Part shown: positions 42,968 to 63,277 of the stretch, one piece after another
Layout: the number at the start of each line of letters is the position of its first letter
How positions within the stretch are numbered: position 1 is the stretch's first letter
Origin: Tichowtungia aerotolerans
GTDB taxonomy: Bacteria > Verrucomicrobiota > Kiritimatiellia > Kiritimatiellales > Tichowtungiaceae
NCBI RefSeq assembly: GCF_009905215.1
Contig: NZ_CP047593.1
Span: forward strand, 2,298,900 to 2,362,899
Direction: 5' to 3'
DNA: 64,000 nucleotides
Notes under the pieces: generated by a model
What the model saw: only the letters and a program-made list of their open reading frames with translations
Told to the model about the DNA's origin: nothing
Databases searched by the model: none
Program-made: the position numbers and the translations under genes

Positions 42968-43061
42968 GCGGTTAAAAGATGTCGTCACATTGTGACCTTC
43001 ATGTTTCCTTAAGGTGAACTATGCCAGTATCTCCTCAGATAAAGAAACAAAGGAGGGTCCT

Positions 43062-45586: not shown

Positions 45587-46855
45587 GTGAAGAGGCGAGT
45601 GGTTTGTGGGCAGAATGTGGAGCTTCGTCAGGGAAAGCTTTGGGTGGAGGAGGAGCACCGGTTTTTGAAGATCGGTAAGCCGCTGCGGAATTTCGGAGAC
45701 CCGAGTGATGTGGAGGAGCTGGTTTCGGATTTGGGCAGAATCAAAGAGAAGAAGTTCGACTGCATTGAGCTGAACTGTTACTGGCATCATCTTGACCGTG
45801 ACGGCGACGGAATGGTGGATGTGGATGTCGAGCCGCTGCGCCGCCTGATTGATGCTATTTGCGATCATGGCATGTTTGTCTCGCTGTCGGTTGAAACCTA
45901 CGGTGTCGGTGGAGGACAGGTTCCTGACGGGTTCTGGGCCGCTTATCCCGATGCTCTTGCGGTGGGCGTTGACGGAAAGAGTGTGGCGGACACGGAGTAC
46001 GGCTATATGTCGAAGGTTCCGTCTCTTTTTTCGGAAGATTACCTGCGGGTATCCCGCAGTTATATTTCCCATCTGACGTCCTTGCTGGATATTTCTAAAA
46101 TTCTTTATTTCGAGACGACGGTGGAACCCCAGTATATGGGAGATGTCTTTGTCGATTATTCCGATAATGCCCGGCGTGCATATGAAACGTGGGTGCAGGA
46201 GAATGGTGTTTCGGATGCGCCGGCTTTCCCGGAAGAGTTGCCGGTTTCACAGGCGTTTGTTCAGCATCCGGTCTGGAATCGGTTCCGCGCCGAGTGGCTT
46301 GCCCGCTGGGTCAACGGCGATGCGCAGGCATTTCGTGACGCGGCTGGAGCGGATGCCTGGGTGGCTGCAGATTATCTGGATGCGGACGAACCGACGATGC
46401 CGGCTCGATGCGGGGATCCGGTGGTTTTTCTGGAGGGACTGGATCAGATTGATATCATCCAGGTCAACTGGCATTGGCATAATTTATCCCGGGAGCCGAA
46501 TAGAAAGGCGTACGAGCGTGTGCGTCAGGTAATGGACGCCTTCGACCGGGACTGGGCGATTACCGAGCATATGACGATTAACGGAACAGACTACCAGCCG
46601 GAAGAGATGGAGGAGCTGCTGCGCAATACGATCCGGAACAGCACTCATTTCGGATGGGAGTTTGTGGACCTGGCGGCGGATATGGATTCGCCGGACACCC
46701 CGGAGGGAGAGGTCCTTCCGGGCAATTTTAAGCCGGCCCATTTTGCTGTGTATAACCGCAACTGGGAGCCCAAGCCAAACATGGCCGTGGTGGATGAACG
46801 ATGGGATGAGTGGATGGACGAAGTGCGGACGGCCGCCGCTGTCGAGTGTTCGTAA
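45587..46855 (+). CDS. Glycoside hydrolase-like TIM-barrel protein (clan GH-A type), cytoplasmic
   Basis: A 422-residue protein without signal peptide, beginning at a GTG after GAGGAGAG. It has the look of a beta/alpha barrel: KKFDCIELNCYWHHLDRDGD (strand 2), MFVSLSVETYGVGGGQVPDG, LYFETTVEPQYMGD (possible acid/base glutamate), WVAADYLDADEPTMP, and IIQVNWHWHNLS. The strand-7 region is RDWAITEHMTINGTD, whose glutamate could be the nucleophile. It ends HFGWEFVDLAADMDSPD. I recognise no precise family; GH42/GH5-like is the nearest guess. It is the first gene of the polysaccharide locus and 25 bases before the first sulfatase. It probably processes oligosaccharides imported by the symporter. Confidence 0.65.
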   Translation: MKRRVVCGQNVELRQGKLWVEEEHRFLKIGKPLRNFGDPSDVEELVSDLGRIKEKKFDCIELNCYWHHLDRDGDGMVDVDVEPLRRLIDAICDHGMFVSLSVETYGVGGGQVPDGFWAAYPDALAVGVDGKSVADTEYGYMSKVPSLFSEDYLRVSRSYISHLTSLLDISKILYFETTVEPQYMGDVFVDYSDNARRAYETWVQENGVSDAPAFPEELPVSQAFVQHPVWNRFRAEWLARWVNGDAQAFRDAAGADAWVAADYLDADEPTMPARCGDPVVFLEGLDQIDIIQVNWHWHNLSREPNRKAYERVRQVMDAFDRDWAITEHMTINGTDYQPEEMEELLRNTIRNSTHFGWEFVDLAADMDSPDTPEGEVLPGNFKPAHFAVYNRNWEPKPNMAVVDERWDEWMDEVRTAAAVECS

Positions 46856-46880: not shown

Positions 46881-48926
46881 ATGATTAAAAAATTGCTATT
46901 GACACTTTCCTGCGGCCTGCTGGCTCAGCGTGGACTGACCGAAGAAAAGCCCAATGTCGTCTTCATCATTACGGATGACCAGAGCTGGGATACGATTCAA
47001 TGCATGGGAGGGAAAGTGCTGACTCCCCGCTTGGACCGCATGCGGTCCGAGGGGATTTATCTCAGCGATTTCAATGTGACGTCCACGGTCTGCTCGCCGA
47101 GCCGCTACAGTTTTTTAACGGGTCGGTATGCCGGGCGGTGCGAAGGAGACTATTTTACCCGCCTGCATCCGGCGGGGAGTCAGACGCGTGTGGAGAATAA
47201 CTGTGAGCTGGAGGAAGACCGCTGGAATTTGGCGAAGGCCATGCAGGCGAACGGATATCGAACCGGCTTTGCCGGGAAATCCCATATGATTCATCATGAC
47301 TGGCTTCCCAGGAGGAACTGGAAAGCAGCCGGGCTGGAATCCTATCCGCAGAATGCCGATCCGCGGGATCCGGAAGTGAATGCGAAAATGCAGCGCAACC
47401 ACCGGAAATGGTGTGAAGCGATGAAACAGCATGGGTTTGATTTTGCGGACGGAGTGTATGGCGCCAACCTGATGGAACTCTGGTGCGATGCGCTGAATGT
47501 GCACAACATCGACTGGACGATCAGCAAGGCGCTGACGTTTATGGAGCAGAGCAGAGACGATCCCTTTTTCCTGTATGTCGGATTGACGCTGAATCACGGT
47601 CCGGATCCGGGGAAAATCAGGTATACGCTTGCAGCAGACCCCCGGATGACCGGTGAAGGCTTTGTCGCGGAGGGCTTTGATGTGCTTCCGTCGCATCAGG
47701 ATGTTCTGGACCGGAATGCCGCCGTCGGTTTTACGGATCAGAAAGCCCACTCGTTGTGGCTCGACGATGGCATCGGGGCGATCTTCGACAAACTCGAGGA
47801 ACTGGATCTGAACGAAAATACAATTGTCTTCTTTGTGCCGGACCATGGGCTGTACCGGCACGGAAAATCAACGCTGCACGACAACGGTATGCGCATCCCG
47901 ATGCTGGTCTGGTGGAAAAACCGGATTCCGGCAAATGCAACGTATGACGAAATTGTCGCCAATATTGATGTGGCTCCGACCATTATGGATCTGTGCGGTG
48001 TGACTCCGCCGGCCGACTATGAGCTCGACGGGAAAAGCTTCAAATCTGCGCTGTTTGGCAGCCGGGAACCGATTCGGGAATACCTGTTTTCCGAACTGGG
48101 CTATTCGCGGGCAATCAAAACCAAGAACTGGAAGTACATTGCAATCCGCTATCCGGCGGAGGTCGAATGGCGCATCAACAGCGGACAGAAATTTCCCAAT
48201 TACGGGGGGCGTCCGCCGGTGGACCGACCCTATTTGGTGCGCAATACGCATCTGGGCTATTATGCATCCAAGGTCAATCCGCACTACTTTGAAGTGGACC
48301 AGCTCTACAACCTGAAGGCCGATCCGCAGGAAAACGAAAACCTGTTTGGTCAGTATCCCGAAGTCGAGCAGACACTGAAGGACCAACTGACGAAAAAACT
48401 GGAACAGTTTCCGGGACGTCCATTCGGCGAGTTTTTCAAGGACCCCTGTTCCTGGCCGGCCATGGATGAACTCGGAGCACCGGACGGAACGGGCGTGATC
48501 CTGAAAATCGTGACGGACTCCCAGGTCGAACCGGTGACGGTTCAGGGGCGGGACGCCTGGAAGGCGCTCAATCGTCCGGGGCAGCCGGAATACCTCTATT
48601 ACAAGATCGATAATCCTCTTCTGAAAGACGGGGCGCAGCCCAAAGTGATTGTACGGGTGGTTTATCTGGATCGCGGAAACACGCGCGCGCTCATCGAGTA
48701 TGATTCGAGCGATCCGAACGGCAATCCCAATCCGAACCTGAAGGGCGCGTTTAAACCGTATGGGGATTTTTATGTGGAGGATTCCAATGTTTGGAAAACC
48801 AACTTTTTCCTTTTGACCGATGCACAGTTCAGCGGTCGCTGCCATGGTGCGGATTTCCGGCTGGACTTTTCGAAATCCGATGCTGATCCGGTTGTGTCGG
48901 ACGTTTCTGTTTTTGCTGTTGAATAA
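46881..48926 (+). CDS. Exported formylglycine sulfatase (S1 family) with C-terminal module
   Basis: Hydrolyses sulfate esters, probably on a marine or host polysaccharide. The 681 residues begin with a signal peptide (KLLLTLSCGLLAQRGLTEE). Metal-binding aspartates are in FIITDDQ (32-33), and the maturation motif C-S-P-S-R (Cys 71) in TSTVCSPSRYSFLTGR becomes formylglycine. Further sulfatase marks are FAGKSHMIHHDWLP, VPDHGLYRHGKSTLHDNGMR and APTIMDLCGV. The last about 145 residues form a separate module (YLYYKIDNPLLKDGAQPKVI; YLDRGNTRALIEYDSSDPNG; FSGRCHGADFR) shared with neighbouring proteins. It is a close paralogue of the sulfatase at 51 kb. It needs an anaerobic or FGE-type maturase encoded elsewhere. 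Confidence 0.93.
   Translation: MIKKLLLTLSCGLLAQRGLTEEKPNVVFIITDDQSWDTIQCMGGKVLTPRLDRMRSEGIYLSDFNVTSTVCSPSRYSFLTGRYAGRCEGDYFTRLHPAGSQTRVENNCELEEDRWNLAKAMQANGYRTGFAGKSHMIHHDWLPRRNWKAAGLESYPQNADPRDPEVNAKMQRNHRKWCEAMKQHGFDFADGVYGANLMELWCDALNVHNIDWTISKALTFMEQSRDDPFFLYVGLTLNHGPDPGKIRYTLAADPRMTGEGFVAEGFDVLPSHQDVLDRNAAVGFTDQKAHSLWLDDGIGAIFDKLEELDLNENTIVFFVPDHGLYRHGKSTLHDNGMRIPMLVWWKNRIPANATYDEIVANIDVAPTIMDLCGVTPPADYELDGKSFKSALFGSREPIREYLFSELGYSRAIKTKNWKYIAIRYPAEVEWRINSGQKFPNYGGRPPVDRPYLVRNTHLGYYASKVNPHYFEVDQLYNLKADPQENENLFGQYPEVEQTLKDQLTKKLEQFPGRPFGEFFKDPCSWPAMDELGAPDGTGVILKIVTDSQVEPVTVQGRDAWKALNRPGQPEYLYYKIDNPLLKDGAQPKVIVRVVYLDRGNTRALIEYDSSDPNGNPNPNLKGAFKPYGDFYVEDSNVWKTNFFLLTDAQFSGRCHGADFRLDFSKSDADPVVSDVSVFAVE
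48782..48796. repeat. TTCCAA-N3-TTGGAA palindrome, copy 7
   Basis: Perfect TTCCAA-TGT-TTGGAA inside the C-terminal module of the first sulfatase, read as D-S-N-V-W-K-T. The paralogues have 'SGTWKT' and 'SGTWTT' at this place without the palindrome, so the DNA motif has been gained or lost within a conserved protein segment. Confidence 0.8.
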
Positions 48927-48989
48927 ATAATGTTTGCAACTCGGGCGATTCGCGATGTGGTTATTCTCGGGGCTCAGGGAGGTGTATCA

Positions 48990-50987
48990 ATGAGAAGTGT
49001 ATTATTGTTCGGTTTTTTGCTGATGGCTGTTTCCGCCGGCTGGAGTGCGCCGAAGTTCAACCCGCTGTTTACGGACCATATGGTGTTGCAGCGAGGCAAG
49101 CCGGTTCCAGTTTGCGGATCGGCCGATCCTGGAGAAAAGGTGACGGTGACATTTGCGGGACAGAGCAAAACGGCGGTTGCGGATTCTTCCGGACAATGGC
49201 GCCTTTTGCTGGATCCGCTGGCGGCGAACAGTCAGTCGGATGAGCTGGCAGCAACCTCTGCAGATGGGAAACAGACCTGTGCGGATGTGCTGGTTGGCGA
49301 TGTCTGGCTGTGTGCCGGGCAGTCCAACATGGCAACACTGATGAAAACCTACTCGACGCTTTCGGATGAAACTGAAACCATGAAGAATCCGCAGGTCCGC
49401 CTTTTCAAAACCAAACAAGGTGGGGTCGGGGCTCCTGAACCGTCGAAACAGGTGGTCATCGATCCGCTGTTTAAATCCTCCTGGCAGATTTGCTCGCCGG
49501 AGTATGCTGCGAACTTTTCAGCGACGGCCATGTTTTTTGCCCGGCAGCTTCAGCCGCAGCTGAATGTGCCGATTGGACTGATTTATGCCAATCGCGGCGG
49601 AACGGCGGTCCACTCCTGGCTCCCGCAGGACGTGCTGGCATCCCGTCCGGAGTATGAGCTCTATCGCGCCAAAGCGTTTCCTGACCGGAAGCCTTCAAAG
49701 AACAATCCCGGAGCCATTCGCACGCCGTCGCATCTCTACAACGGAACAATCCATCCGCTGGCTCCGTTCGCCATCAAGGGAACGATTTGGTACCAGGGCG
49801 AATCGAATTCATCGCGTTCCGAACTCTATGCCATGGAGATGGGAGACCTCATCGCATCCTGGCGAAAACTGTGGGGGGATGACTTTTACTTCCTGTTTGT
49901 CCAGCTGGCTCCGTACGGAGGTGTCCAATGGGATACGAGCGGCGAAGGGTGGGCCTGGCTGCGTCAGGCGCAGACCGATTGCCTTGAGATTCCGAAGACA
50001 GGCATGGCTGTGATTCTTGACTCCGGGGAATTTACGGATATTCATCCGCAGAACAAGCAGCCGGTCGGCGAGCGGCTCGCACTGCTGGCCGAACAAATCG
50101 ACCACCCGCAGGTTGTGGCGTCCGGCCCGATGTTTGATTCGGTTCAGTTCAAAAAAGGGAAGGCAATTATCTCATTTAAAAAGGGAACAGCCGGAGGACT
50201 GCACACTCAGCGCGTGGCGATGAATAAAGGCCGGAAGATTGAGCCTGGCAAGGACCCGAAAGCATTTATTGCTCCGGCGGATAAGCTCTTTGGTTTTGAG
50301 ATTTCCGGGAAGGATCTGAACTGTGTTGCGGCTGATGCCCGTATTGATGGGGACCAGGTCATTGTCAGTCACCCTTCTATTTCTGAACCGGTAGCGGTTC
50401 GCTATGGCTGGGCGAACTTTCCGCTGGCCAATCTGTACAACGGCGCCGGCTTGCCGGCCTGTCCGTTTCAGAGCGGTCCTTTCAAACGGCCGGAAGGTCC
50501 CTACAACAGCGAGAAGCCGCCGGTCGCGAACCTTGGAGATCCTGTGATTGCGATACCTGTAACTACGGTGTCGGATTCGCAGGTCAGCGAAGTGTCTGTT
50601 GCAGGACGGAAGGCCATGCAGTGCCGTCTGGAAGATCGTTCGCGGGGCTACTTTTATTATAAAATCGAGGATCCCGCTTTTACGGATGGTGCCCAGCCGG
50701 GGGTGATTATTCGGGTGACCTATCTGAACCGTGGAAACTGCATGGTCAATTTCCAGTACGATTCAAATGACCTGGACGGAAGCCCGAATCCGAAGCTGAA
50801 AGGGGCGTTTAAGTCGTACGGAGCCGATTTTTATACGAAGGAATCGGGTACCTGGACGACCCGTTACTTTGTCGTGAAGGATGCGAAGTTCAGCGGCCGC
50901 TGCCACAAAGCGGATATCCGGATTAATTTCATCAACCCGGACGTGGATCCGGTTGTCGCGGAAGTAGCGGTCTATCCACTGGACTAA
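48990..50987 (+). CDS. Sialate O-acetylesterase-like SGNH hydrolase with C-terminal module
   Basis: Exported carbohydrate esterase, 665 residues. I place the start at the ATG at 48990 because GGGAGG precedes it by 7-8 bases and a signal peptide then begins at once (SVLLFGFLLMAVSAGWSA). The N-terminal beta-domain FTDHMVLQRGKPVPVCGSAD is typical of the family. The nucleophile is in LCAGQSNMATL (Ser 112), with RGGTAVHSWLP, TIWYQGESNSS and the Asp/His pair in FTDIHPQNKQPVGERL. The last about 140 residues (YFYYKIEDPAFTDGAQPGVI; FSGRCHKADIR) are the same module as in the adjacent sulfatases. The family removes acetyl groups from sialic acid or plant sugars; here an acetylated, sulfated polysaccharide is likely. 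Confidence 0.92.
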   Translation: MRSVLLFGFLLMAVSAGWSAPKFNPLFTDHMVLQRGKPVPVCGSADPGEKVTVTFAGQSKTAVADSSGQWRLLLDPLAANSQSDELAATSADGKQTCADVLVGDVWLCAGQSNMATLMKTYSTLSDETETMKNPQVRLFKTKQGGVGAPEPSKQVVIDPLFKSSWQICSPEYAANFSATAMFFARQLQPQLNVPIGLIYANRGGTAVHSWLPQDVLASRPEYELYRAKAFPDRKPSKNNPGAIRTPSHLYNGTIHPLAPFAIKGTIWYQGESNSSRSELYAMEMGDLIASWRKLWGDDFYFLFVQLAPYGGVQWDTSGEGWAWLRQAQTDCLEIPKTGMAVILDSGEFTDIHPQNKQPVGERLALLAEQIDHPQVVASGPMFDSVQFKKGKAIISFKKGTAGGLHTQRVAMNKGRKIEPGKDPKAFIAPADKLFGFEISGKDLNCVAADARIDGDQVIVSHPSISEPVAVRYGWANFPLANLYNGAGLPACPFQSGPFKRPEGPYNSEKPPVANLGDPVIAIPVTTVSDSQVSEVSVAGRKAMQCRLEDRSRGYFYYKIEDPAFTDGAQPGVIIRVTYLNRGNCMVNFQYDSNDLDGSPNPKLKGAFKSYGADFYTKESGTWTTRYFVVKDAKFSGRCHKADIRINFINPDVDPVVAEVAVYPLD

Positions 50988-51035
50988 AATCTATCAATTA
51001 TAAATGGGCCGTTTGGCGCAGTAGAGGTGAATACT

Positions 51036-53132
51036 ATGATGAATATCCGACATAAAGAGAAGAGGGGAGCGTCAGGGTTGAAAACACTTGCCGGTGCATT
51101 GTTTCTGCCGGCTATCCTCTGCCAGCCGGCGGCTGCGGCAAAAAAACCGAATGTTGTGTTTATCATTTCTGATGACCAGGGGGAGGAAACCCTGCACAGC
51201 CTGGGCGGCCAGGTGCTGACTCCGCGGCTCGACCGGATGAGGGAAGAGGGCCTCTATCTGTCCAACTTTTATGTCACATCTACCGTCTGTTCGCCTTCCC
51301 GTTACAGTTTCCTGACCGGGCGGTATGCCGGCAACTGCCGTTCGGACGGGTTTATGAGGCTGCATCCGTCGGGAGAAATGACTCGGGTCGAAAACAATTG
51401 CGAGCTGGAACCCGATCGGCGCCACCTGGCCGAAGTCCTGCAGAAAAACGGCTATAAAACCGGCTTTGTCGGCAAAAGCCACCTCGTCAATCACAATTGG
51501 GCCAACCGCCCAAAGAACTGGGAACTGTACGGACTGAGACCCTATCCGCAAGATGCCGAGCCGCGTGATCCGGAGATCAGTGCCAAACTCAAACATAACC
51601 ATGAAGCCTGGTGCGAGGCGATCAAGGCATATGGGTTTGATTATGTGGACGGAGTGTACGGAGCCAATCCGCGCGAGCTCTACTGCAAGGCGCTGTGGGG
51701 ACATAATCTCGAATGGACCGTCAGCAAGGCGTTAACCTTTCTGGAAGAATCCAAAGACGAACCCTTCTTCCTCTATTTTGCAACCACGCTGCAGCACGGT
51801 CCGGATCCGCGGCTGCCCAAGTTCGGGCTTGGCATGGATCCGCGGATTACGCCGGAAGGATTTTTGGAAGATGCCGAGTTCGATTTTATGCCGTCTCGCA
51901 AAAGCGTGCTCGACCGCTATGCCGCGGCGGGACTGCCCAAGGACGGACAGCCCAACGCCCTCTGGCTCGACGACGGTGTCGGCGCGATTCTCGATAAAAT
52001 CAGGGATCTGGGCCTGGAGGAAGACACGATTGTTATTTTTGTGCCGGATCACGGTTTCTATCAGCCAACGCTCGGAAAGGCGACGCTGTATGACGACGGC
52101 ATGAAGGTTCCGATGTTCATTCAGTGGAAAGGAACGATCCAGCCGGGAGCGACCTATAACCGGCTGCTGGCGAACATTGACGTTGCCCCGACGATCATGG
52201 ATCTGTGCGGAATCACGCCTCCGGAAGACTATGACCTGGACGGGAAAAGTTTTAAACCGGCTCTGTTCGGCAGTCAGGAGCCCCTCCGGGAATATGTTTT
52301 TTCCGAGCTGGGTTATGCCCGCGCGGTGCGGTCGGAAAAATGGAAATACATCGCTGTCCGCTACCCGGAAGAGATCGAATGGATGGCCCGGACCGGCGTG
52401 CCGTTTCCGAACTTTCCAGGAAATCCGTCTCCGGAGCGCCCGTATCTGATCCGCAACACGCATCTGGGACACATCGCCGCCGACCGCAATCCGAACTATT
52501 TTGATCCGGACCAGCTGTACAATATCCAGAGCGATCCGGAAGAAAGCGATAATGTTTTCGGCCAGTATCCGGAAGTGGAAGCGCAGATGAAAAAGGTGCT
52601 TGAACAAAAACTGGAAGCGTTTCCCGGCCGACCGTTCGGCGAATTTGCTTCCAGCGTTCTGCCGGCGGTTTCTGGCGAACCGGCGGCCCGAGCGGTTCTC
52701 CGGAGTGCCGCATCGGATTCCTCGGAGGTGACCTCGGTTTCCATTGAGGGCCGGTCCGGCTGGCAGACCCGGGCTCAGAAAAAAAAGCCGAGCTACTTTT
52801 ATTTAACGGTGGATAATCCCGATCTGCGCAACGGGGCACAGGCTCATGTGCTTCTGCGTGTGACCTATCTCGACCGGGGGAACGCGAAGGTGCTGGTGCA
52901 GTACGATTCCAGCGACCCGAGCGGAAATCCGGACGCGAACCTGCCTCCGGGCGTGTTTAAACATATGGGGAGTTTTTACACCCTGGATTCCGGAACCTGG
53001 AAAACCAAAGAGTTTCTGGTTCGGGATGCCCGGTTTGCCGGGCGCTGTCACGGGGCGGATATCCGATTTGGCTTTATGAAGCCGGATGCCGACCCGGTGA
53101 TCGGGGATATTGAAATTTATCGTGTGGATTAG
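51036..53132 (+). CDS. Exported formylglycine sulfatase (S1 family) with C-terminal module, paralogue 2
   Basis: Close paralogue of the sulfatase at 46.9 kb, 698 residues from the ATG at 51036 (AGAGGTG upstream; an in-frame GTG at 51027 overlaps that site). The signal peptide is LKTLAGALFLPAILCQPAAA. Catalytic features are FIISDDQ (Asp 46-47) and TSTVCSPSRYSFLTGR (Cys 85). Others are FVGKSHLVNHNW, VPDHGFYQPTLGKATLYDDG and APTIMDLCGI. A C-terminal module of about 145 residues carries YFYLTVDNPDLRNGAQAHVL, YLDRGNAKVLVQYDSSDPSG and FAGRCHGADIR. Divergence between the two copies suggests related but distinct sulfate positions. It is 39-48 bases downstream of the esterase gene. Confidence 0.93.
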   Translation: MMNIRHKEKRGASGLKTLAGALFLPAILCQPAAAAKKPNVVFIISDDQGEETLHSLGGQVLTPRLDRMREEGLYLSNFYVTSTVCSPSRYSFLTGRYAGNCRSDGFMRLHPSGEMTRVENNCELEPDRRHLAEVLQKNGYKTGFVGKSHLVNHNWANRPKNWELYGLRPYPQDAEPRDPEISAKLKHNHEAWCEAIKAYGFDYVDGVYGANPRELYCKALWGHNLEWTVSKALTFLEESKDEPFFLYFATTLQHGPDPRLPKFGLGMDPRITPEGFLEDAEFDFMPSRKSVLDRYAAAGLPKDGQPNALWLDDGVGAILDKIRDLGLEEDTIVIFVPDHGFYQPTLGKATLYDDGMKVPMFIQWKGTIQPGATYNRLLANIDVAPTIMDLCGITPPEDYDLDGKSFKPALFGSQEPLREYVFSELGYARAVRSEKWKYIAVRYPEEIEWMARTGVPFPNFPGNPSPERPYLIRNTHLGHIAADRNPNYFDPDQLYNIQSDPEESDNVFGQYPEVEAQMKKVLEQKLEAFPGRPFGEFASSVLPAVSGEPAARAVLRSAASDSSEVTSVSIEGRSGWQTRAQKKKPSYFYLTVDNPDLRNGAQAHVLLRVTYLDRGNAKVLVQYDSSDPSGNPDANLPPGVFKHMGSFYTLDSGTWKTKEFLVRDARFAGRCHGADIRFGFMKPDADPVIGDIEIYRVD

Positions 53133-53162
53133 GAGCGAATTTAAAACAGCGAAAGGGGATTC

Positions 53163-56100
53163 ATGCTTAAGAGGTCTTTAATAATGGGTTGTGTGGCGGC
53201 GTCGGGGATCTGCGCGGCTCTCGCGGAAGATGCCGCCCGGGTGGCGCTGGTCGGTGGGGATTTGAGTTCCGCCGGCGGCCGGATTGCACAGAGCACGGAG
53301 CAGGTGCTGAAGGGCAGGGGCATCCGTTACGATGTGTTGGCCGGCCAGTCGCTGACCGATTCGTCGATTTTAAAGCGGTATGATCTGCTGGTTTATGCCG
53401 GAGCCGAAGCCCTGCCGATGACCGCATCCCTGCCGCTTCAGGAATATCTCCAGTCCGGCCGCGATCTGCTTGCCTTGGGGGCGCCTCCTTTCAGTGAAAA
53501 ATTCTGGCCGGTGGAAGATGGGTTTCTCAGCCAGGAAGAGCTGGATGAAAACCTGAAACAGTCTCCGGCGGCCGATGCGTTCCTGGATTTCCAGCAGGCG
53601 CACCAACGGGAGGGCTGGAACGAGGAGACCAATCACGAAGAGAGCCGTTCCGGAACGGAGTTTCTCTCGGAGGATGCAAACACCTTCATGCGGCTGAACA
53701 TCGTGAACTTCACGGGCTGGGACATGTTTTCCCTTCCGGTTGACCATCTCGGAAACGACAACGATGCTATTCTCCGGTTCAAGGTCCGCGGAGCTTCCCA
53801 GACCACCGAACTGCTGGTCGAACTGCTCGAAGAAGACGGGTCGCGCTGGATGGCAACCGCGGAGGTCTCGCCGGAATGGTCATCGGTTCTCCTCTGGCCG
53901 GGTGAGTTCAAATGCTGGCATGACGGCGGTCCGATGGGACGGGGCGGAGATGGCGACGCGGTGAAACTGTCGCAGGTGGCCGCAGTCAAATTCGGGCTGG
54001 CCACTAGCCATATCACCCTGTCTGAAAAAGACCATCAGGTGGACATTGATGACGTGGTGACCGTGCGCAATCCGGCGCTCACCGATGCGGCCGGAGAAAT
54101 GCCGTCGCTCGACGGGCTGACCCCGGATTATAAATATTTTCCGGTGACCGGAACGGCGGCCATCAAACCGGCCCCGAATCAGGTGATGGTTCGCGATGCC
54201 GGTGAAATCAAAGCCGGTCCGATCGCCTCGGTCCACCCCCGACCGATGGGGCTGGGGTATCTCAAGGATCGACCCTACCGCTTTGTGCCGCTGCTCAACA
54301 CCTATAACGCCGACGGCCGGCGCTCCGGCTATCTGGCCTGGATGATGATCAACGAAGGGCGGCGAACCGGAGACTATCCGGTCTGGATGTTCCTGGAGAG
54401 CGGCAAAACCCCCAATCCGTATGCCGGAAGCCGGTGGGCGGTTTTCGGGACCAGCAATCCCGCGGACTATGAGCAGCCTTCTCTTCAGAAGGCACTCGGT
54501 CAGGTGGTGCAGGGAATGCTGCGCGGCACCTTTCTGATGGAGGGCGGCAGCGAGCACTTTATTTACACGGACTCTCCAAAGGAAGTCTTGCTGGGCGCGC
54601 ATACGGTCGTCAGCCCGCTGGAGCAGGATCCCCGTTCCCTGAAACTCCTGTGGACCGTGACGGATGCGGACGGCGAAACCGTTGTGTTCCGCCAGGGACA
54701 GTCCATGTATCGGCAGGGAAGCAGGATTCCGGAAACCGATGGCGGATTCATGGATCATTTCCAGAAATTCCAGATCGAAGAGGGGCTGAAAGCCGGAACG
54801 TATATTGTCACCACAGAACTCATGGATGAAGATGGGGTGATTGACCGGATTTCCCACGAAATGAATGTGTGGAAACCCAAGCCGGTGGAGGAGCGGAAGT
54901 ATGTGACGACCGACGGGGGACAGTTCATGCTGAACGGCAAACCCTGGTTCGGCTACGGCATCAACTATATGCCGAGCTCCGGGGTCGCCCTTGAAAACAC
55001 AACGGACTATGAATTCTTTGTCAACCGGACCGCCTACGATCCGGCGATTATCGACGAAGATCTGGAAATGCTGCAAAGCATCGGCTTCAACCTGATCAGC
55101 ACGTTTATCTATTACCGCGACATCGACACCCGGAACATTCTGGACCTGCTGCTGCGGGCGGAAAAATACGGCATGAAGGTCAACCTCGGCCTGCGCCCGC
55201 ATGCCGATCCCATGCAGTTCAATGTGCGCGAGGTCGAAGACCTGATTCGCGAAAACCGGCTGGCCGAACACGATGCCGTCATTGCCTACGACCTGGCCTG
55301 GGAACGCAACTGGGGTGAATGGGACCGCAGCTACGGAACCTATACGGGCCGCAAAGGCTATGATGAAATCTGGGAACTCTGGATCAACGATCAGTACGGT
55401 TCCCTCTCCGCTGCAGAAAAGGAGTGGGGTGTTGAGGTCCCGCGCCGGGGAGACGGCCGGGTTACCGGTCCGTCCGATGAGCAGATCGATACCGATGGTC
55501 CCTGGCGCAACATGGTCGCAGCCTATCGCAGTTTTGCCGACTGGTACACCGGATACCGCATGATGAAGGCCTCGGACGCCATTCGGGCGGTCGACCCCAA
55601 CCATCTGATCAGCTTCCGGATGCACAACACCGGCGATCCGACACAGAAGCCGTCTTTCTATCCCTTTGATATGAAGGCCCTGGCGCCGTTCCTGGATATC
55701 ATGGAGCCCGAGGCGTACGGCCGAATCGGCGACTGGGATCGCGTGAAGCCCGGGCTGTTTACCGGCGCCTACAGCCGCATGGTGGCGTCGGATAAACCGC
55801 TCTATTGGTCGGAATTCGGGCATCACGTCTGGACCGGAAGCAATTTTGAGATGGACGAAGCCCGCGTTCAGTTCCAGGCAGACTACTATCGCGACTTCCT
55901 GACCATGTGCCGGATGAGCCGGGTCAATGCCGTTGCCTGCTGGTGGAATGCCGCGGGATACCGCATCAATGAAAACAGCGATTTCGGTGTCTTCAACCCG
56001 GACAAAAGCGACCGGCCGGTCACCAAAGTGCTGCGCGAGTTTGCCGACGTCTTCAAGAATCCGGATCTTTCTTTGGAACCCGACGTCTCACTGACGTTTG

Positions 56101-56675
56101 ACCGGGATCGCAGCAGCCGGGGACTCAACGACGAATATGTCCGGCTGGAAGAGGAGTACTGGAAGCTGACGGATGAGGGAAAATTTGTCGGTCTGACCAC
56201 ACCCGGTCACGGAACGACTACGGCCGACGTGCCGCTGGATGCGGTTGGCAACGGCTCGGATGTGAAATCCGCTCCGGCCAAATATATCAACGCCACGTTC
56301 CGTCAGGTGCAGATCCGTCAGGGGCAGGGCCTGTGGCGCACGGTCCAGAGCGGCGATCGGATTCCCGTCCGGGCCGGCGCTCCAGTCGAGATTCGGGCGC
56401 TTGCCGCCAACACGGATTATGCAACGTGGCTGTCGGCCCGCTCGTCTTCGGTCGGTGCGGTGGTACTGACCGGCCGCACGGCCGGCAGGATGGCCCTGCA
56501 GGCCGGTCTGAAGAGCGACACCCCCCATATGTCAGACGGAAGCTTCGAGCCGGCGGTCCTGACAGACGGAGTCTCGGAAGAAACGGACTGCAAATTGAGA
56601 CTGCAGGTGACGGGCCGGGAGATCGGGGCCTTCGGTTTCGGTGAAGTCTTCCACCTGGAGCTGAGTCCGCAATAG
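53163..56675 (+). CDS. Large exported glycoside hydrolase, clan GH-A TIM barrel
   Basis: A 1170-residue exported protein with signal peptide (KRSLIMGCVAASGICAALAE). Residues about 25-130 look like a flavodoxin/GATase-like N-terminal region (VALVGGDLSSAGGRIAQSTE). A beta-sandwich region follows (about 180-300, LRFKVRGASQTTELLVELLE...VDIDDVVTVRNP), then mixed domains to about 600. The catalytic barrel starts at GGQFMLNGKPWFGYGINYMP. The acid/base region is AYDLAWERNWGEWDRSYGTY and the nucleophile region is KPLYWSEFGHHVWTG, followed by AVACWWNAAGYRINENSDFG. The 'WSEFG' and 'WERNWG' patterns support a retaining clan A enzyme (GH5/GH42/GH50-like), but no precise family can be assigned. It follows the second sulfatase by 30 bases in the same operon. 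Confidence 0.75.
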   Translation: MLKRSLIMGCVAASGICAALAEDAARVALVGGDLSSAGGRIAQSTEQVLKGRGIRYDVLAGQSLTDSSILKRYDLLVYAGAEALPMTASLPLQEYLQSGRDLLALGAPPFSEKFWPVEDGFLSQEELDENLKQSPAADAFLDFQQAHQREGWNEETNHEESRSGTEFLSEDANTFMRLNIVNFTGWDMFSLPVDHLGNDNDAILRFKVRGASQTTELLVELLEEDGSRWMATAEVSPEWSSVLLWPGEFKCWHDGGPMGRGGDGDAVKLSQVAAVKFGLATSHITLSEKDHQVDIDDVVTVRNPALTDAAGEMPSLDGLTPDYKYFPVTGTAAIKPAPNQVMVRDAGEIKAGPIASVHPRPMGLGYLKDRPYRFVPLLNTYNADGRRSGYLAWMMINEGRRTGDYPVWMFLESGKTPNPYAGSRWAVFGTSNPADYEQPSLQKALGQVVQGMLRGTFLMEGGSEHFIYTDSPKEVLLGAHTVVSPLEQDPRSLKLLWTVTDADGETVVFRQGQSMYRQGSRIPETDGGFMDHFQKFQIEEGLKAGTYIVTTELMDEDGVIDRISHEMNVWKPKPVEERKYVTTDGGQFMLNGKPWFGYGINYMPSSGVALENTTDYEFFVNRTAYDPAIIDEDLEMLQSIGFNLISTFIYYRDIDTRNILDLLLRAEKYGMKVNLGLRPHADPMQFNVREVEDLIRENRLAEHDAVIAYDLAWERNWGEWDRSYGTYTGRKGYDEIWELWINDQYGSLSAAEKEWGVEVPRRGDGRVTGPSDEQIDTDGPWRNMVAAYRSFADWYTGYRMMKASDAIRAVDPNHLISFRMHNTGDPTQKPSFYPFDMKALAPFLDIMEPEAYGRIGDWDRVKPGLFTGAYSRMVASDKPLYWSEFGHHVWTGSNFEMDEARVQFQADYYRDFLTMCRMSRVNAVACWWNAAGYRINENSDFGVFNPDKSDRPVTKVLREFADVFKNPDLSLEPDVSLTFDRDRSSRGLNDEYVRLEEEYWKLTDEGKFVGLTTPGHGTTTADVPLDAVGNGSDVKSAPAKYINATFRQVQIRQGQGLWRTVQSGDRIPVRAGAPVEIRALAANTDYATWLSARSSSVGAVVLTGRTAGRMALQAGLKSDTPHMSDGSFEPAVLTDGVSEETDCKLRLQVTGREIGAFGFGEVFHLELSPQ

Positions 56676-57037
56676 AGCCGAAGGCCAGCGGGGCCGGTAT
56701 TCGTCGATCACAGGGTTACTCTGTTGAATGGGTGAGATACAGGGAGGGCATTTGGGAACGATGCAGTGAGACGTTTTTTTTGACCAGATAAGCAGGAATC
56801 GAGGGGTTGGATGATCCCGGAATGAAGGAGAATTTTATCGGACCCCGGGTCTTGCCGCGGATGCCGGCCTGGACCTGGGCCCGTGGGAGGCCTGGAAGGT
56901 TGCGCTGGATCCGGGGGCGCATTTTATCTGCTCGTTTGATCTTCGTCATGTGCCCGGAAACGGCCGCGTTCCGGGACGTGGACGAGCCATTCCTGTGAAT
57001 TTGATGTTGAAGTAAATTAGGAAATTAAAGGAGAGGT
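56676..57037 (+). pseudogene. 360-base gap with a possible gene relic
   Basis: Between the large hydrolase and the symporter. A frame of about 60 codons from 56836 to 57015 reads AADAGLDLGPWEAWKVALDP, then GAHFICSFDLRHVPGNGR and ends VNLMLK-stop. It has coding-like composition and resembles the C-terminal 'L.PWEa.v..L' ends of glycoside hydrolases. There is no plausible start: upstream text lacks an in-frame start with ribosome site. I read it as the 3' scar of a deleted gene, with low confidence. AAGGAGAG at the right end serves the symporter. Confidence 0.3.
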
Positions 57038-59053
57038 ATGGAGGCGTGGAATTATTTTGGACTGGTGGATTATCTGTTTATGGGCATCTACCTGTTGATC
57101 CTTGTCGGTATGGGGTTTTATCTCAGGCAGCGCGCCTCGCGCAGCCTCGACAACTATATCTGCGGCGGCGGGCATCTGCCGTGGTGGATGATGGGCGTTT
57201 CGGGAATGGCCAATTTTCTGGACCTCGCCGGAACGGCGGTCATTATTTCCTTTCTGTTCATGATCGGGCCGCGCGGGCTGTTTGTTGAATTCCGCGGCGG
57301 GGCCGTGCTGGTGCTGCCGTTCATGATGCTCTGGGCGGGCAAGTGGCACCGTCGATCCGGCTGCCTGACGCTGGCGGAATGGAACATTTTCCGGTTTGGC
57401 GATAACTGGGGAGGGCGCTTTGCCCAGCAGATGATTGTGGTATCCATGATTCTGTTCACCATCGGCCTGCTCGCCTACCTGATTATCGGCGCGGGCATCT
57501 TCCTGTCCATGTTCCTGCCGTTCTCGCCGATCGCCTGTTCGCTGGGGCTCATCGGATTTGCCACGCTGTATAATATGATTTCCGGATTTTACGGAGTTGT
57601 TTATACCGACCTGTTCCAGTCTTCAATCATTGTCGCCGCGGTCGTTTATATTTCCATCAAGGCATTTGGTCTGACGGGCGGCGCCGAAGAGATTTCCGAG
57701 GTCGCCATGCAGGTGACCGGCAATCCGGACTGGATCAGCGGGGTTCCCTCGTGGACGATCGACATGCCGAAAGGGTATGAAGCATATCGGCACCTGGTTG
57801 TCCTGATGGGGCTCTATCTGATGAAAAATATTTTCTTCGGTGCCGGCTCCGGATATGACCAGCGCTATTTCGGCGCGCGCAACGACCGCGAATGTGGACT
57901 GCTTTCCCTGTTCTGGACCGCACTGATGACGCTGCGCTGGCCGATGATGATCGGGATCGCCCTGCTGGGTCTCTACGCGGTTCACAGCCTGATGCCGAAT
58001 CACGACCTCGTGTCGCAGGCCGCCAGCCTGATCCACGCTCATTATCCCGATGCGGAAGGCCAGACCTGGGATGCGCTGATTTCCGGCCTGTCGCACGCTC
58101 CCGCCAACTATCCGGCCGACCTGCTCACCGGACTCAAGGATCTGCTCGGCGCCGATCAGTTTGCCGGGAAACTCCAGCTGATCAGCAGCGAGGGCACAAT
58201 CAATCCGGAAAAAATTCTGCCGGCCGTTCTCCTGCTGTCCGTCGGGGAGGGCATGCGCGGTGTTCTCGTGATTGCGCTCATCGCGGCGGCACTTTCAACC
58301 TTCGGCAGCAATGTCAACCTGGCCACCGGCATGATGGTCAATGACTTCTATAAAAAATGGATTCGTCCGAAGGCTTCGACCCGCGAGCTGATTCTGGCCA
58401 GCTGGGTCAGTGTGCTGCTACTGGTGGTAACCGGCTTCCTGTTTTCCATCACGCTCAAAAACATCAACGACATCTGGGGCTGGCTCATGATGGGGCTTCA
58501 GAGCGCGATTCTTGTGCCGATCTTCCTGCGGTTCTACTGGTGGCGCTTCAACGGCGGCGGCTATGCATTCGGCTGTCTGGGCGGACTGGTCGCCACGATC
58601 GCGCAGCGGGCACTGGCTCCGGAGCTCAATGAGGGCTGGCAGTTTGTCATCACACTGGCGGGCGGGCTGACCGGATCCATCATCGGAACCTACCTGACGC
58701 AACCGACGGATCCCGAGGTGCTCCGGAACTTCTATCTGAAAACCCGACCCTTCGGCATCTGGGGGCACATCAAGAAGACCCTCTCGGAAGAGGAGCAGAT
58801 CCGCACCACGCGCGAACACCGCAACGACCTGATCGCTGTTCCGTTCGCACTGCTCTGGCAGGTCACCATGTTCCTGTGCCCGATGCTTGCGCTCGTCAAA
58901 AACTGGACCGGCTTTGCCGGCGCATTCATTCTCTGGCTCATCGGCGGCGCCGGGCTGTGGTTCTTCTGGTACCGCAACCTGCCGGCAACCAACTACTACG
59001 AGGATCCGGCCGAAAAACCGGCCGAAAAACCGGTCGAGGCATCCGGCGAATAA
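57038..59053 (+). CDS. Sodium:solute symporter (SSS family, SGLT-like)
   Basis: Inner-membrane sodium-coupled transporter, 671 residues with 13-14 hydrophobic segments. Family signatures are YFGLVDYLFMGIYLLILVGM at the N-terminus, SLDNYICGGGHLPWWMMGVS, and GMANFLDLAGTAVIISFLFM. Also present are GFATLYNMISGFYGVVYTDL, GAGSGYDQRYFGARNDRE and ALIAAALSTFGSNVNLATGM (TM8 sodium-site serine region). A C-terminal hydrophilic tail is rich in Glu/Pro/Lys repeats (AEKPAEKPVEA). ATG is preceded by AAGGAGAGG. Within this locus it is the only transporter and most likely imports the mono- or oligosaccharide released by the exported enzymes; no TonB/SusCD-type outer-membrane pair is present. Confidence 0.93.
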   Translation: MEAWNYFGLVDYLFMGIYLLILVGMGFYLRQRASRSLDNYICGGGHLPWWMMGVSGMANFLDLAGTAVIISFLFMIGPRGLFVEFRGGAVLVLPFMMLWAGKWHRRSGCLTLAEWNIFRFGDNWGGRFAQQMIVVSMILFTIGLLAYLIIGAGIFLSMFLPFSPIACSLGLIGFATLYNMISGFYGVVYTDLFQSSIIVAAVVYISIKAFGLTGGAEEISEVAMQVTGNPDWISGVPSWTIDMPKGYEAYRHLVVLMGLYLMKNIFFGAGSGYDQRYFGARNDRECGLLSLFWTALMTLRWPMMIGIALLGLYAVHSLMPNHDLVSQAASLIHAHYPDAEGQTWDALISGLSHAPANYPADLLTGLKDLLGADQFAGKLQLISSEGTINPEKILPAVLLLSVGEGMRGVLVIALIAAALSTFGSNVNLATGMMVNDFYKKWIRPKASTRELILASWVSVLLLVVTGFLFSITLKNINDIWGWLMMGLQSAILVPIFLRFYWWRFNGGGYAFGCLGGLVATIAQRALAPELNEGWQFVITLAGGLTGSIIGTYLTQPTDPEVLRNFYLKTRPFGIWGHIKKTLSEEEQIRTTREHRNDLIAVPFALLWQVTMFLCPMLALVKNWTGFAGAFILWLIGGAGLWFFWYRNLPATNYYEDPAEKPAEKPVEASGE

Positions 59054-59070
59054 GGCGGGGCGGTATTCAC

Positions 59071-60827
59071 ATGGAAAGAAAGATTATCCAGTCCTGCTGT
59101 CTGTTCGCCGGTGTGACGGCGGCGGCTTCCCTTGCGGAAACCGCCGCGCCGCGGCCGAATGTTCTGCTGATTGTTGCGGACGATATCGGCTGCGGCGACC
59201 TCGCCTGTTACGGAAGCCCCGTGGCCGACACGCCCAACCTCGACCGGCTCAAGGCTCATTCGCTCTCCTTTGCGGATTATCATGTGTCGCCGATGTGCAC
59301 TCCCACCCGCAGTTCGCTGATGACCGGGATGGATCCGATCCGGACCGGTGCCGACTATGTCTGCATGGGGCGCTCGCTGCCGCGGGCAGACCTGCCGATG
59401 GCGCCGCAGCTCTTCAAAGCCGCCGGTTACAGCACGGCGCTGTTCGGCAAATGGCATCTGGGCAGCAATGTCCCGTTTCGTCCGCAGGATCGGGGCTTCG
59501 ACGAGGTCCTGACGTTTCCGGGATCGCACATCGCCAGCGCGCCGGATTACTGGGAAAACGACTACTGGAGTCCGATGCTCCAGCACAACGGCGAATGGAA
59601 GAAATATGATGGTTTCTGCACCGATATCTGGTTCGACGAAACCATGGCCTGGATCAGCGAACAGGCCGACCGCCCGTTCTTTCTGTATCTGCCGGTCAAT
59701 GCCGCCCATGGCCCGTTCTGGAGCCCGGAAGAGCTGAAAAACAAATACCTGCAGCGCGGCCTGAGCGATCCTGCCGCCCGGTTCTATGGACTGATCGAAA
59801 ACCTCGACTGGAACCTGGGGCGCCTTGTCCGTTTTCTGGAAGAAAAGCAGCTCGACCAAAACACGATTCTGATTTACAGCTCGGACAACGGTACCGCATT
59901 CGGCGACACCGTGTACAACGCCGGCATGCGGGGAAAGAAGCGGTCGCTTTACGACGGCGGACATCGTGTGCCCCTGTTTGTCCGCTGGCCGGGAAAGCTG
60001 CCGGCAGGAGTCGAGATTTCGGCACTGGTTCAGACGCAGGACCTGCTGCCCACGCTGCTGGATCTGGCGAACATTTCCTTCCGGCCGGGACAGTTCGACG
60101 GCATCAGCCTTGCCGAACCGCTGAAAGCCGGTTCATCGGCGGGACTGCCGGACCGGATGCTGACCATCCAGTACGGCTCGGATGATCCCGCCGGCGGGCA
60201 TCAGAAGCATGATGCGGCCGTCATCTGGAATCAGTGGCGTCTCGTCGGGAACAGGGAGCTGTACGATCTTCGCAAGGACCCCGGTCAGCAGACCGATGGT
60301 GGAGCTCCGTTCCGTCCTTCCGCTATTCCCGGATACACATCGGCAGTCTGCGGGAGCCCGTCAGCCTGCTGTCCTCCAAGGACTGGGCCTATGGATACTG
60401 CGACAATCCCCACAACATTCGCAGCGGAACATCCGCCACCGGGGTCTGGCATCTGTACAACGAGGAGGCCGGGGACTATTCCATTCAGCTCTACCGCTGG
60501 CCGCCGGAGGCGCGGCTCGCCATCCGCTCCGGCGCACCGAAATACATCGGAAAGTACGGTGACTTTGAGCAGGGCATTGCGCTGCCCATCGCCCAGGCAA
60601 AAATCGAAATCGCTGGATCGGTGCAAACGGTTCCGGTACAGGCGGGGGATCGTTCCGCCGACTTCACCGTTTCCCTTCCTCAGGGACCGGTCGAGCTGGC
60701 CGCGTCGTTTCTCCAGGAGAGCGGAGAGCCCCGCTGCGGTGCCTATTATGCCGTTGTCAAAAAGCGCGGAAGCACGGAAACCCTGTCCAGGCTTCGTGCT
60801 GCCGATACGGAATCCCGGGAGAAATAA
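59071..60827 (+). pseudogene. Exported sulfatase (S1 family) with a frameshift at about 60,296
   Basis: The N-terminal 409 codons encode a normal sulfatase: signal peptide (KIIQSCCLFAGVTAAASLAE), IVADDIGCGDL, the C-T-P-T-R maturation motif (Cys 76) in SPMCTPTRSSLMTG, LFGKWHLG, YSSDNGTAFG and LPTLLDLA. The frame is lost just after LYDLRKDPGQQTD. From 60297 the next frame continues the family sequence (WWSSVPSFRYSRIHIGS; LLSSKDWAYGYCDNPHNIRS; GDYSIQLYRWPPEA) to a stop at 60827, six bases before the next gene. The 15-20 residues usual between 'DP.Q.tD' and 'WW' are missing, so a deletion of 3n+1 bases is likely. It is either a pseudogene or an assembly error. The domain core upstream is complete, so a truncated product could still fold. 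Confidence 0.8.
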
Positions 60828-60832
60828 ACGTC

Positions 60833-63277
60833 ATGAGCAGACTGACCAGACAACCTGTTGTGTGGGCGCGCGCGGCCCTGATGCTTCTGTCGGCAGGACT
60901 CTCTGTCGGCAGGGCACTTGCGGCGCCGGTCAGTCTGAGTCCGCTTCCGATGGGCGGCGACGGGGCGTACTCCACGGAAACCCGGCTCGGCCGGAGCGTC
61001 TGGATTCCCGACAGTCTTTATCTCTATTTTGATGTGCCCGATTCGCCGGATTTTGTTCCCGGTGAGCCGCTTTATATCCGGGTTGAATACGTTGATGCCG
61101 GTCGGGGATATCTGAACTGCCAGTATGATTCAACCTATGGCGATGAAGCCGCAGACCGATATCGTTTGGCGGAACTGCACACGCGGTCCAGCCGGATTGA
61201 CACCGGGGAATTCGTCTATTCGCACCGCCAGTTCGTATCGCCGCTGCTGGGCGGACGGCAGAACGGCGGTGCGGACTTCCGGCTGGTGCTCAAAAGCAGC
61301 GACAGCGAGGCGTTTGCTGTCGCCGGTGTCGAGGTGAGCAGTGCGCCGTTCGATGACGAGCGGTTTCTCTACGTGCTTTCCCGGCCGTGGCTCGTTCCAT
61401 ATGACGGGGACGTGAATGATTTTGTGGATGCGAAGACCCTGTCCGGCAAGGTGATGGCCGGTTATCAGGGATGGTTTCGGACGCCGAATGATGCGGAGGA
61501 CAACGGCTGGCAGCACTGGGGGCGCACAGCCTTTGACAGGCTGGATGCAACGCAGATTACCGTGGATATGTGGCCCTATGTGTCCGACTATCTGCCCGAG
61601 CGACTTTGTCCCGCCGACGGGATGGTGCTGGAGAGCGGCCGCCCGGCATATCTCTTCTCCTCGGCCGATCCGGAAACGGTTCAGCGCCATTTTCGGTGGA
61701 TGCGGAAATACAACATCGACGGTGTTTATCTGCAGCGGTTCATCACCCGAAACAACAGCGGCTACTACGGCGCTTCGGAATTTGTGCTGGATAACGTGCG
61801 CAAAGCCGCCGCCCGCGAGGGACGGGTCTGGGCGCTTGAATACGATGTCAGTTCGCTGGACAACGACGCCAGCCCGTTGGAAGTGATGACGAATGACTGG
61901 CAGTGGCTGGTGAATGATCTCGGGATTCTGGACGATCCGCGCTATCTGCACGAAGACGGCAAACCGGTCCTGTTCATCTGGGGATTTTCCGTGGAGGGGC
62001 GGGACTTCACCATCGATCAGGCCAATGAAATTGTGGACTATTTCTCGTCGCAGAATCTTTATCTGATCGGTGGCGTCAACTGGTACTGGCAGAATAAAAG
62101 TGACTGGTATGACCATTACCGGCGCTACGACCAGCTGCTCGGCTGGATGGAATCCGACCGCAGCCGTCTGAGCAGCCAGAAGCAGCAGCTCGAAAACTGG
62201 GGCATGAAAATTCTCCCGCATGCCTGGCCCGGATTTTCCTGGTGTAACCTGAAAATGCTGCAGCCGGGAACGCAGTACACGCCGCGCAGCGGCGGGCAGT
62301 TTTATTGGAACCGTCTCTACAACGCCGTTTCCTGCGGGGCCGACCAAATCTTTCTGGGCATGTTCGATGAGTACGATGAGGCGACGGCGATCATGCCGAT
62401 GTCCGATGAGCACCCGGCACCGCACACCGCGTGGGGACAGTACATCGACAACGAAGGCCGGGACCCATTTCGCTATCTTCAGCTGAGTGTTGCCGCACGG
62501 GAGATGTTGCGCGGTGAGCGTTCGGTCTCGTCATCGCTTCCGTCTCCCGACAGCCTGGTGGATCCGGCATACGGCGGAGCCCATGCAACCGCCTATCTGC
62601 GGCAAACCAATTCGGAAAACGGGCTGATGCTTCGGGAGCCGTCCGATGGGCAGACCGTCGCGGCGGTTGTCGGCGGCTATGACTGCCGAGTGAACGGTCC
62701 GGATCCTTCTGCAGATTATTATTTTTATTTTGATATCGATGACTCGCTTTGCTTCAGCAATCAGGCCGGACAGGCGGTTACGGTTGAAATTGAGTACTAT
62801 GATGATGCGGGCACCGCGGGAGCCCGGTTCCGGCTGCAGTACGACGGTCTGTCCGGATCTTACGCGCCACATGCGACCGTTTATACGGCGCCGGGAAGCG
62901 GCGGGTGGAAAAACCTGCGCTGGAATATCAACGATGGCCTGTTCGCCGGAAGGCAGCATCTCGACTCGGATTTCCGTATCGCACTGTATTCGGGTGATCA
63001 GGCGGCCCTCCGCCGGGTCAGTGTGTTTTTTCCGGAAGAAGAGGCCGGAACGACCGCTGCGGACGAGGTCGGTCTCCAGTGGCTGGACGGCGAGGTGTCC
63101 TGGTCGACCGCCGCCGGTGCCGTCGGCTGGCAGTTATTCCGGAGCGACTCACTGGACCAGCCGGAGTGGCAGGAGATTCCCGGCACAGTCCGCATTTCGG
63201 ATGAGACGGTTTTTTATCGTCCTGAAGCAACCGCTGAAGCGGGATTCTACCGGCTGGAACGGACCGTCAGGCAATAG
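60833..63277 (+). CDS. Exported GH71/GH99-like glycoside hydrolase with two flanking modules
   Basis: An 814-residue exported protein with signal peptide (ARAALMLLSAGLSVGRALAA). Residues about 35-170 and about 600-730 look like diverged copies of the module found in the sulfatases (YLYFDVPDSP...YIRVEYVDAGRGYLNCQYDS...FRLVLKSSD, and YYFYFDIDDS...FAGRQHLDSDFRIALYSGDQ). The central domain begins GKVMAGYQGWFRTPNDAEDN and continues YDVSSLDNDASPLEVMTNDW, HEDGKPVLFIWGFSVEGRDF and LPHAWPGFSWCNLK. This matches glycoside hydrolase family 71/99-like proteins (endo-alpha-mannanase-type). The end has a short beta domain (WQLFRSDSLDQPEWQEIPGT). It follows the frameshifted sulfatase by five bases. The substrate is unknown. 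Confidence 0.85.
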   Translation: MSRLTRQPVVWARAALMLLSAGLSVGRALAAPVSLSPLPMGGDGAYSTETRLGRSVWIPDSLYLYFDVPDSPDFVPGEPLYIRVEYVDAGRGYLNCQYDSTYGDEAADRYRLAELHTRSSRIDTGEFVYSHRQFVSPLLGGRQNGGADFRLVLKSSDSEAFAVAGVEVSSAPFDDERFLYVLSRPWLVPYDGDVNDFVDAKTLSGKVMAGYQGWFRTPNDAEDNGWQHWGRTAFDRLDATQITVDMWPYVSDYLPERLCPADGMVLESGRPAYLFSSADPETVQRHFRWMRKYNIDGVYLQRFITRNNSGYYGASEFVLDNVRKAAAREGRVWALEYDVSSLDNDASPLEVMTNDWQWLVNDLGILDDPRYLHEDGKPVLFIWGFSVEGRDFTIDQANEIVDYFSSQNLYLIGGVNWYWQNKSDWYDHYRRYDQLLGWMESDRSRLSSQKQQLENWGMKILPHAWPGFSWCNLKMLQPGTQYTPRSGGQFYWNRLYNAVSCGADQIFLGMFDEYDEATAIMPMSDEHPAPHTAWGQYIDNEGRDPFRYLQLSVAAREMLRGERSVSSSLPSPDSLVDPAYGGAHATAYLRQTNSENGLMLREPSDGQTVAAVVGGYDCRVNGPDPSADYYFYFDIDDSLCFSNQAGQAVTVEIEYYDDAGTAGARFRLQYDGLSGSYAPHATVYTAPGSGGWKNLRWNINDGLFAGRQHLDSDFRIALYSGDQAALRRVSVFFPEEEAGTTAADEVGLQWLDGEVSWSTAAGAVGWQLFRSDSLDQPEWQEIPGTVRISDETVFYRPEATAEAGFYRLERTVRQ

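Follow-up and report, generated by a model that had tools for sequence, protein, structure and literature searches.

Why do two sulfatases, an esterase and a glycoside hydrolase (GH) encoded close together end in, or lie between, copies of one and the same domain? The question is raised by a locus of a Kiritimatiellota genome (G000, a single contig of 3.88 Mb). The window, that is, the whole stretch of 64,000 nucleotides that was analysed, corresponds to C1:2298900-2362899 of this genome. A first-pass annotation of the window had proposed that the shared domain is an uncharacterised carbohydrate-binding or surface-attachment module, which moved or was recruited independently and directs different enzymes to one polysaccharide. 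The explanation that we favour, and consider fairly probable as a whole, is a carbohydrate-binding module (CBM) of the beta-sandwich, galactose-binding-like type, whose family is found in none of Pfam, NCBIfam and PDB, and which here probably targets a sulfated alpha-mannan.

The module and its locus

The features of the window used in the analysis are the following, all on the + strand.

45587-46855, +: 422-aa protein with a counterpart (69%) in a P. desulfatans-like cluster (sequence comparison)
46881-48926, +: sulf1, predicted S1 sulfatase (S1_51-like), module C-terminal (PF00884 3e-43; PDB 9FVT 6e-135; formylglycine motif CSPSR)
48930-50987 (start perhaps 48990), +: CE20/SASA-like carbohydrate esterase, module C-terminal (PF03629 1.5e-17; PDB 9H4U, a CE20 enzyme, 1e-85)
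51027-53132, +: sulf2, predicted S1_51-like sulfatase, module C-terminal (PF00884 1e-42; PDB 9FVT 9e-132)
53163-56675, +: 1170-aa protein, weakly GH14/GH42-like, without module, 30 bp 3' of sulf2 (domain scan)
57038-59053, +: sodium:solute symporter, kept in related clusters (PF00474 5e-23; homologs 83%, 64% and 62%)
60833-63277, +: GH71/99-like glycoside hydrolase between two modules (PF16317 1e-6, under cut-off; PDB 4ACY 8e-5)
48486-48923, +: module copy 1, sulf1 residues 536-681 (BLASTP and HMM)
50544-50984, +: module copy 2, esterase residues 539-685 (BLASTP and HMM)
52692-53129, +: module copy 3, sulf2 residues 556-701 (BLASTP and HMM)
60923-61354, +: module copy 4, N-terminal copy of the GH (BLASTP, HMM and module tree)
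62612-63037, +: module copy 5, C-terminal copy of the GH (BLASTP, HMM and module tree)

The module, of ~145 residues, forms the C-terminal end of the proteins at 46.9, 48.9 and 51.0 kb. Its copies are 51% (sulf1/sulf2), 51% (sulf1/esterase) and 47% (esterase/sulf2) identical from end to end (BLASTP, ~1e-49 to 1e-54), which bears out the alignment noticed in the first-pass annotation; the motif given there is also right for these three close copies. The two diverged copies that it placed around the catalytic domain at 60.8 kb were recovered as well: the C-terminal one is 29% identical to the sulf1 module (~7e-11, BLASTP), the two are 29% identical to each other (7e-6), and both are only 25 to 30% identical to the sulfatase and esterase modules. 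With the window sequences left out, an HMM was made from 29 related copies; it matched exactly these five copies among the 319 open reading frames (ORFs) of the window (E-values 1.9e-42, 2.2e-41, 2.1e-37, 1.1e-16 and 1.4e-8), and gave no match with 1,000 shuffled modules. The catalytic parts had been described as unrelated; this is so between sulfatase, esterase and GH, but not for sulf1 and sulf2, which are homologs (58% overall).

The genes from 46881-48926 through 53163-56675 lie on one strand, spaced by 3 to 39 bp, an arrangement suggestive of a single operon. The GH gene follows downstream of this four-gene run in the same direction. The protein at 45.6 kb is weakly GH14/GH42-like, as is the one at 53.2 kb.

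Several other genes of the region deserve mention. A third sulfatase (~59062-60827, +) is apparently frameshifted: the N-terminal part shares its frame with ORF 58876-61032, and the C-terminus, which is normal, falls in ORF 60234-60827. It has an intact homolog (70% identity) in a second cluster, and represents either a pseudogene or a sequencing error. That second, paralogous cluster of the same genome (C1:132-154 kb; L038, L107) contains a symporter (83%), sulfatases, GH38, an esterase and a GxGYxYP protein that each carry a module, and a GH71/99-like protein (73%) that carries two. A gene running on the + strand from ~63.4 kb to the window end, and on into L106:594-4565, starts with a CBM4_9-like segment, which is also N-terminal in the GH and the esterase of the second cluster, and continues outside the window with a pectate-lyase-like domain. 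Further upstream, 43014-44507 (+) encodes a protein in which two Lcl_C (DUF1566-type) stretches are combined with EF-hand-like motifs at the C-terminus, and 39876-41645 (+) a single protein with, as read by eye, apparently two tandem alpha/beta-hydrolase esterase domains.

Spread of the module between enzymes

The four closest orthologs of sulf1 and sulf2, found in Pontiella-like genomes, are 62 to 65% identical to sulf1 and stop at the end of the catalytic domain, without the module. The cluster around one of them (G025:C2) is syntenic: it also encodes the 422-aa protein and the symporter, together with a GH99-like protein, a GH38 and an esterase that carries the module (L155). Module-bearing sulfatases found elsewhere are of other sulfatase lineages, and one of these has the module at its N-terminus. 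For the window esterase, the closest paralogs in its own genome (54%) differ from it in the C-terminal region.

In the module tree, the copies of sulf1, sulf2 and the esterase formed one clade (97/96), with modules of G025 and Lentisphaerae sulfatases as neighbours; the modules of other esterases were placed elsewhere. A single clade of all esterase modules was rejected (AU test, P = 0.015, and P = 0.003 when one more esterase was added). A tree in which the sulf1 and sulf2 modules are sisters without the esterase copy was not rejected (P = 0.29). Since the esterase copy groups with the sulfatase copies and the Pontiella-like sulfatase orthologs are devoid of module, we conclude that domain shuffling between unrelated catalytic domains is, as judged from the sequences, real. 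In the locus, the module probably spread by local duplication or transfer among the tandem S1_51-like sulfatases and the CE20-like esterase.

The proposal of movement or independent recruitment needs qualifying for the GH. Its N- and C-terminal copies are each 42 to 70% identical to their counterparts across six GHs from five genomes, which are all those found of the subfamily; each of them follows its GH, which rules out a recent transfer and indicates co-inheritance with the enzyme.

The existence of one sulfatase with module-bearing and module-less orthologs provides a natural experiment on the role of the module. As a separate observation, in the two Pontiella-like genomes a module-less S1_51-like sulfatase is located less than 15 kb from two GH92 genes (G024:C3 422-435 kb and G025:C1 2774-2788 kb).

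Candidate polysaccharide of the locus

The lead towards an alpha-mannan comes from the relation of the sulfatases to 9FVT, the glutamates of the GH and the presence of GH38 near modules. The sulf2 protein is 44% identical to 9FVT over 495 aligned residues, the match stopping at residue 541, ahead of the module; for sulf1, the PDB entry ranking after 9FVT reached only ~1e-28. Together with the formylglycine motif (CSPSR), these matches suggest that both belong with the S1_51 sulfatases. In the GH, the C-terminal half of the barrel aligns with the GH99 endo-alpha-mannosidase 4ACY, and E513/E516, both invariant in the GH alignment (A7), fall on E329/E332 of 4ACY (DEYDE vs NEWHE), which we take to be the catalytic glutamate pair of GH99. 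The resemblance differs from membership, in that the E-value is only 8e-5 and the PF16317 score 28.6 bits for a cut-off of 33, and the enzyme is probably of another family (GH71/99-like or GH195). As to the esterase, its match with 9H4U covers the SGNH domain and stops near residue 515, again ahead of the module. Its catalytic part is thus akin to the CE20 esterases (9H4U, 9EGA; PMC12313940), and the module sits after the CE20 architecture, distinct from the C-terminal beta-sandwich of CE20.

A GH38 alpha-mannosidase gene is located at ~C1:2367923-2370748, 5 kb outside the window, and GH38 genes are also present in the paralogous cluster at C1:132-154 kb. Taking as neighbourhood a distance of up to 12 kb, a limit that was set after looking, and bearing in mind that clustered genes are not independent, 4 of the 6 GH38 genes of the source genome are close to a module (0.16 expected), and 7 of 22 in three genomes (0.38 expected). 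In the same three genomes, the corresponding figures were 0 of 148 for GH29 (2.1 expected), 3 of 78 for GH2 (1.1) and 0 of 13 for GH92 (0.2). No GH92 gene was found in the source genome, and GH92 was therefore rejected as its mannosidase. The GH38 clustering supports an alpha-mannan, short of proof.

A comparison can be drawn with the OpSulf1 / PbSulf1-GH195 pathway for sulfated mannan, proven in Bacteroidota (Polaribacter; PMC13063451). The window sulfatases are ~44% identical to 9FVT, which stems from that pathway, and in both cases a GH99-related endo-enzyme shares a locus with sulfatases. Degradation is completed there by a GH92 exo-mannosidase, while here it is a GH38 that lies nearby; and the main text of that account, as far as consulted, reports no module comparable to those of the window enzymes. 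By analogy with the Polaribacter order of steps, the sulfatases and the esterase would unmask the chain by desulfation and deacetylation, the GH99-like enzyme, between its two older module copies, would cut it, and the GH38 alpha-mannosidase would finish the oligosaccharides. Taken with the GH38 neighbours, the 9FVT relation points to a possible sulfated-mannan locus in Kiritimatiellota, outside the Bacteroidota of the proven pathway.

That the ligand of the module in this locus is an alpha-mannan is a near-even prospect in our estimation. The absence of GH92 from the source genome and the remoteness of the GH copies from the other three speak against it. The more precise assignment to a C6-sulfated alpha-1,3 kind of mannan is tentative, and somewhat unlikely. 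The most complete scenario should be regarded as unlikely: a founding, uncatalogued, multi-phylum CBM family, of which the Kiritimatiellota branch recognises C6-sulfated alpha-1,3-mannan and was added by copying to two sulfatases, an acetylesterase and a mannanase, directing desulfation, deacetylation and cutting at one diatom polysaccharide.

The module could also be a CBM for a glycan other than alpha-mannan, such as a sulfated galactan, a fucan or an acetylated heteropolysaccharide, the specificity of the sulfatases having drifted. We take this possibility seriously, while doubting it: only one specificity has been characterised for S1_51, the GH99-like proteins form a broad group, the proteins at 45.6 and 53.2 kb lean towards GH14/GH42, and GH92 is missing, but three alpha-mannan pointers coincide, and the clustering of GH38 is not matched by GH29 or GH2. 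That the enzymes act on one polysaccharide, as proposed in the first-pass annotation, is suggested by their nature and by the operon. It does not follow from the modules, the GH copies being so remote from the other three that they may bind something else.

Fold, partners and status of the family

Structure prediction, the check suggested along with the original proposal, gave a confident answer. The AlphaFold2 model of the isolated module (34 sequences) was all-beta, with ten strands (pLDDT 94.8, pTM 0.89), so that the module is predicted to fold as a discrete domain, outside the 9FVT and CE20 units. A model of the whole GH protein, obtained with a 5-sequence alignment, had a pLDDT of 54 and was set aside. 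Foldseek placed the module among galactose-binding-like jelly rolls, mostly with TM 0.5 to 0.58: Eph ligand-binding domains (the best), meprin MAM, CBM29, CBM4-2, CBM22-1, CBM6, CBM11 and exo-beta-agarase. Matches in a viral fold library were generic phage tail jelly rolls, and uninformative. In predicted fold, in size (~145 aa) and in its accessory place on polysaccharide enzymes, the module is like the beta-sandwich CBMs (CBM29, CBM4, CBM22, CBM6, CBM11; 1WCU, 1K42, 4XUO, 1UY0, 2LRO). It differs from them by an identity of 8 to 10% in most fold alignments, without sequence match, and by a conserved motif of its own (YDSxD, W-T, F.GR.NG.DFR). Five residues are invariant (Y72, D73, R118, D123 and R125 in copy 1) and eight nearly so (Y38, Y60, D62, S74, D76, W103, F115 and G121); in the model, most invariant ones map to the end of a strand or to the loops formed by residues 73-89 and 111-123.

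A match to a described family was sought in Pfam, NCBIfam and PDB. None of the 34 diverse members scanned gave a significant Pfam or NCBIfam match, and the PDB sequence search gave no real one. Weak Pfam matches such as Thermopsin, ParB_C and Phage_portal, and the PDB matches 1JJU, BamA and 4XXP, were discarded as chance. The module is a real and well-defined domain family of familiar type that, as judged against these three collections, is apparently uncatalogued. CAZy CBM families outnumber the CBM models of Pfam, and the module could be a remote member of a catalogued CAZy family that has no Pfam model. The best CBM-type matches, all under cut-off and with one member each, were CBM_35_2 (E 0.1) and SGBP_B_XBD (E 0.05); set against the 34 diverse members without significant match and the lack of any PDB sequence match, they leave this explanation quite unlikely.

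The source genome holds ten copies of the module at four loci, and the Pontiella-like genomes G024 and G025 seven each. It was present in 8 of the 58 relatives searched and in 29 of 388 genomes across the phylum, and a scan of named genomes gave matches in Lentisphaerae, Victivallales, Spirochaetes, Desantisbacteria, Verrucomicrobia, Kiritimatiellales, Armatimonadota and Planctomycetes. The total, 93 copies in 77 proteins, is an upper count, a few proteins having been fetched twice under different locus ids. Partners in the 44 proteins scanned, in categories that partly overlap, were GH99-like (14), pectate-lyase-like (9), SASA (7), DUF5010 (7) and sulfatase (4), as well as GH42, GH14, GxGYxYP and BD-FAE types, so that the module is contiguous to carbohydrate-active enzymes. 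Given the pectate-lyase-like and GH42-like partners across phyla, specificity for mannan cannot hold for the entire family.

The module is found N-terminal, C-terminal, on both sides, in tandem (three copies behind a GH-like domain at L067) and without enzyme. Such free placement, with tandem and enzyme-less forms, is the pattern of CBMs. From its fold and company, the module likely binds sugar; most likely, it is an addition to secreted enzymes that degrade polysaccharides and would keep each of them on the polymer. Surface attachment, the other function first proposed, is made less likely by this range of positions, which includes both termini, tandem arrays and a secreted pair without enzyme. 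A structural or protein-protein role on a jelly-roll fold (anchoring, dimerisation or complex assembly) would agree with the protein-binding Eph domains as best Foldseek matches, with the meprin MAM domains and with a module common to several proteins of one operon, but we hold it improbable, since placement is free, unlike that of sorting signals, the partners are nearly all polysaccharide enzymes, of unrelated folds and from many phyla, and close sulfatase orthologs work without it. If the module binds, it represents a new CBM family, carried by sulfatases and esterases besides glycosidases, and could serve as a probe for sulfated polysaccharide; a literature search for sulfatase-CBM fusions found no direct precedent.

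The enzyme-less form is L090:5423-6493, from a Spirochaetes MAG (JACRPF010000021.1), which encodes 357 aa with a signal-peptide-like start and two modules, and is a candidate stand-alone glycan-binding protein. Its gene adjoins module-bearing pectate-lyase-like and esterase genes.
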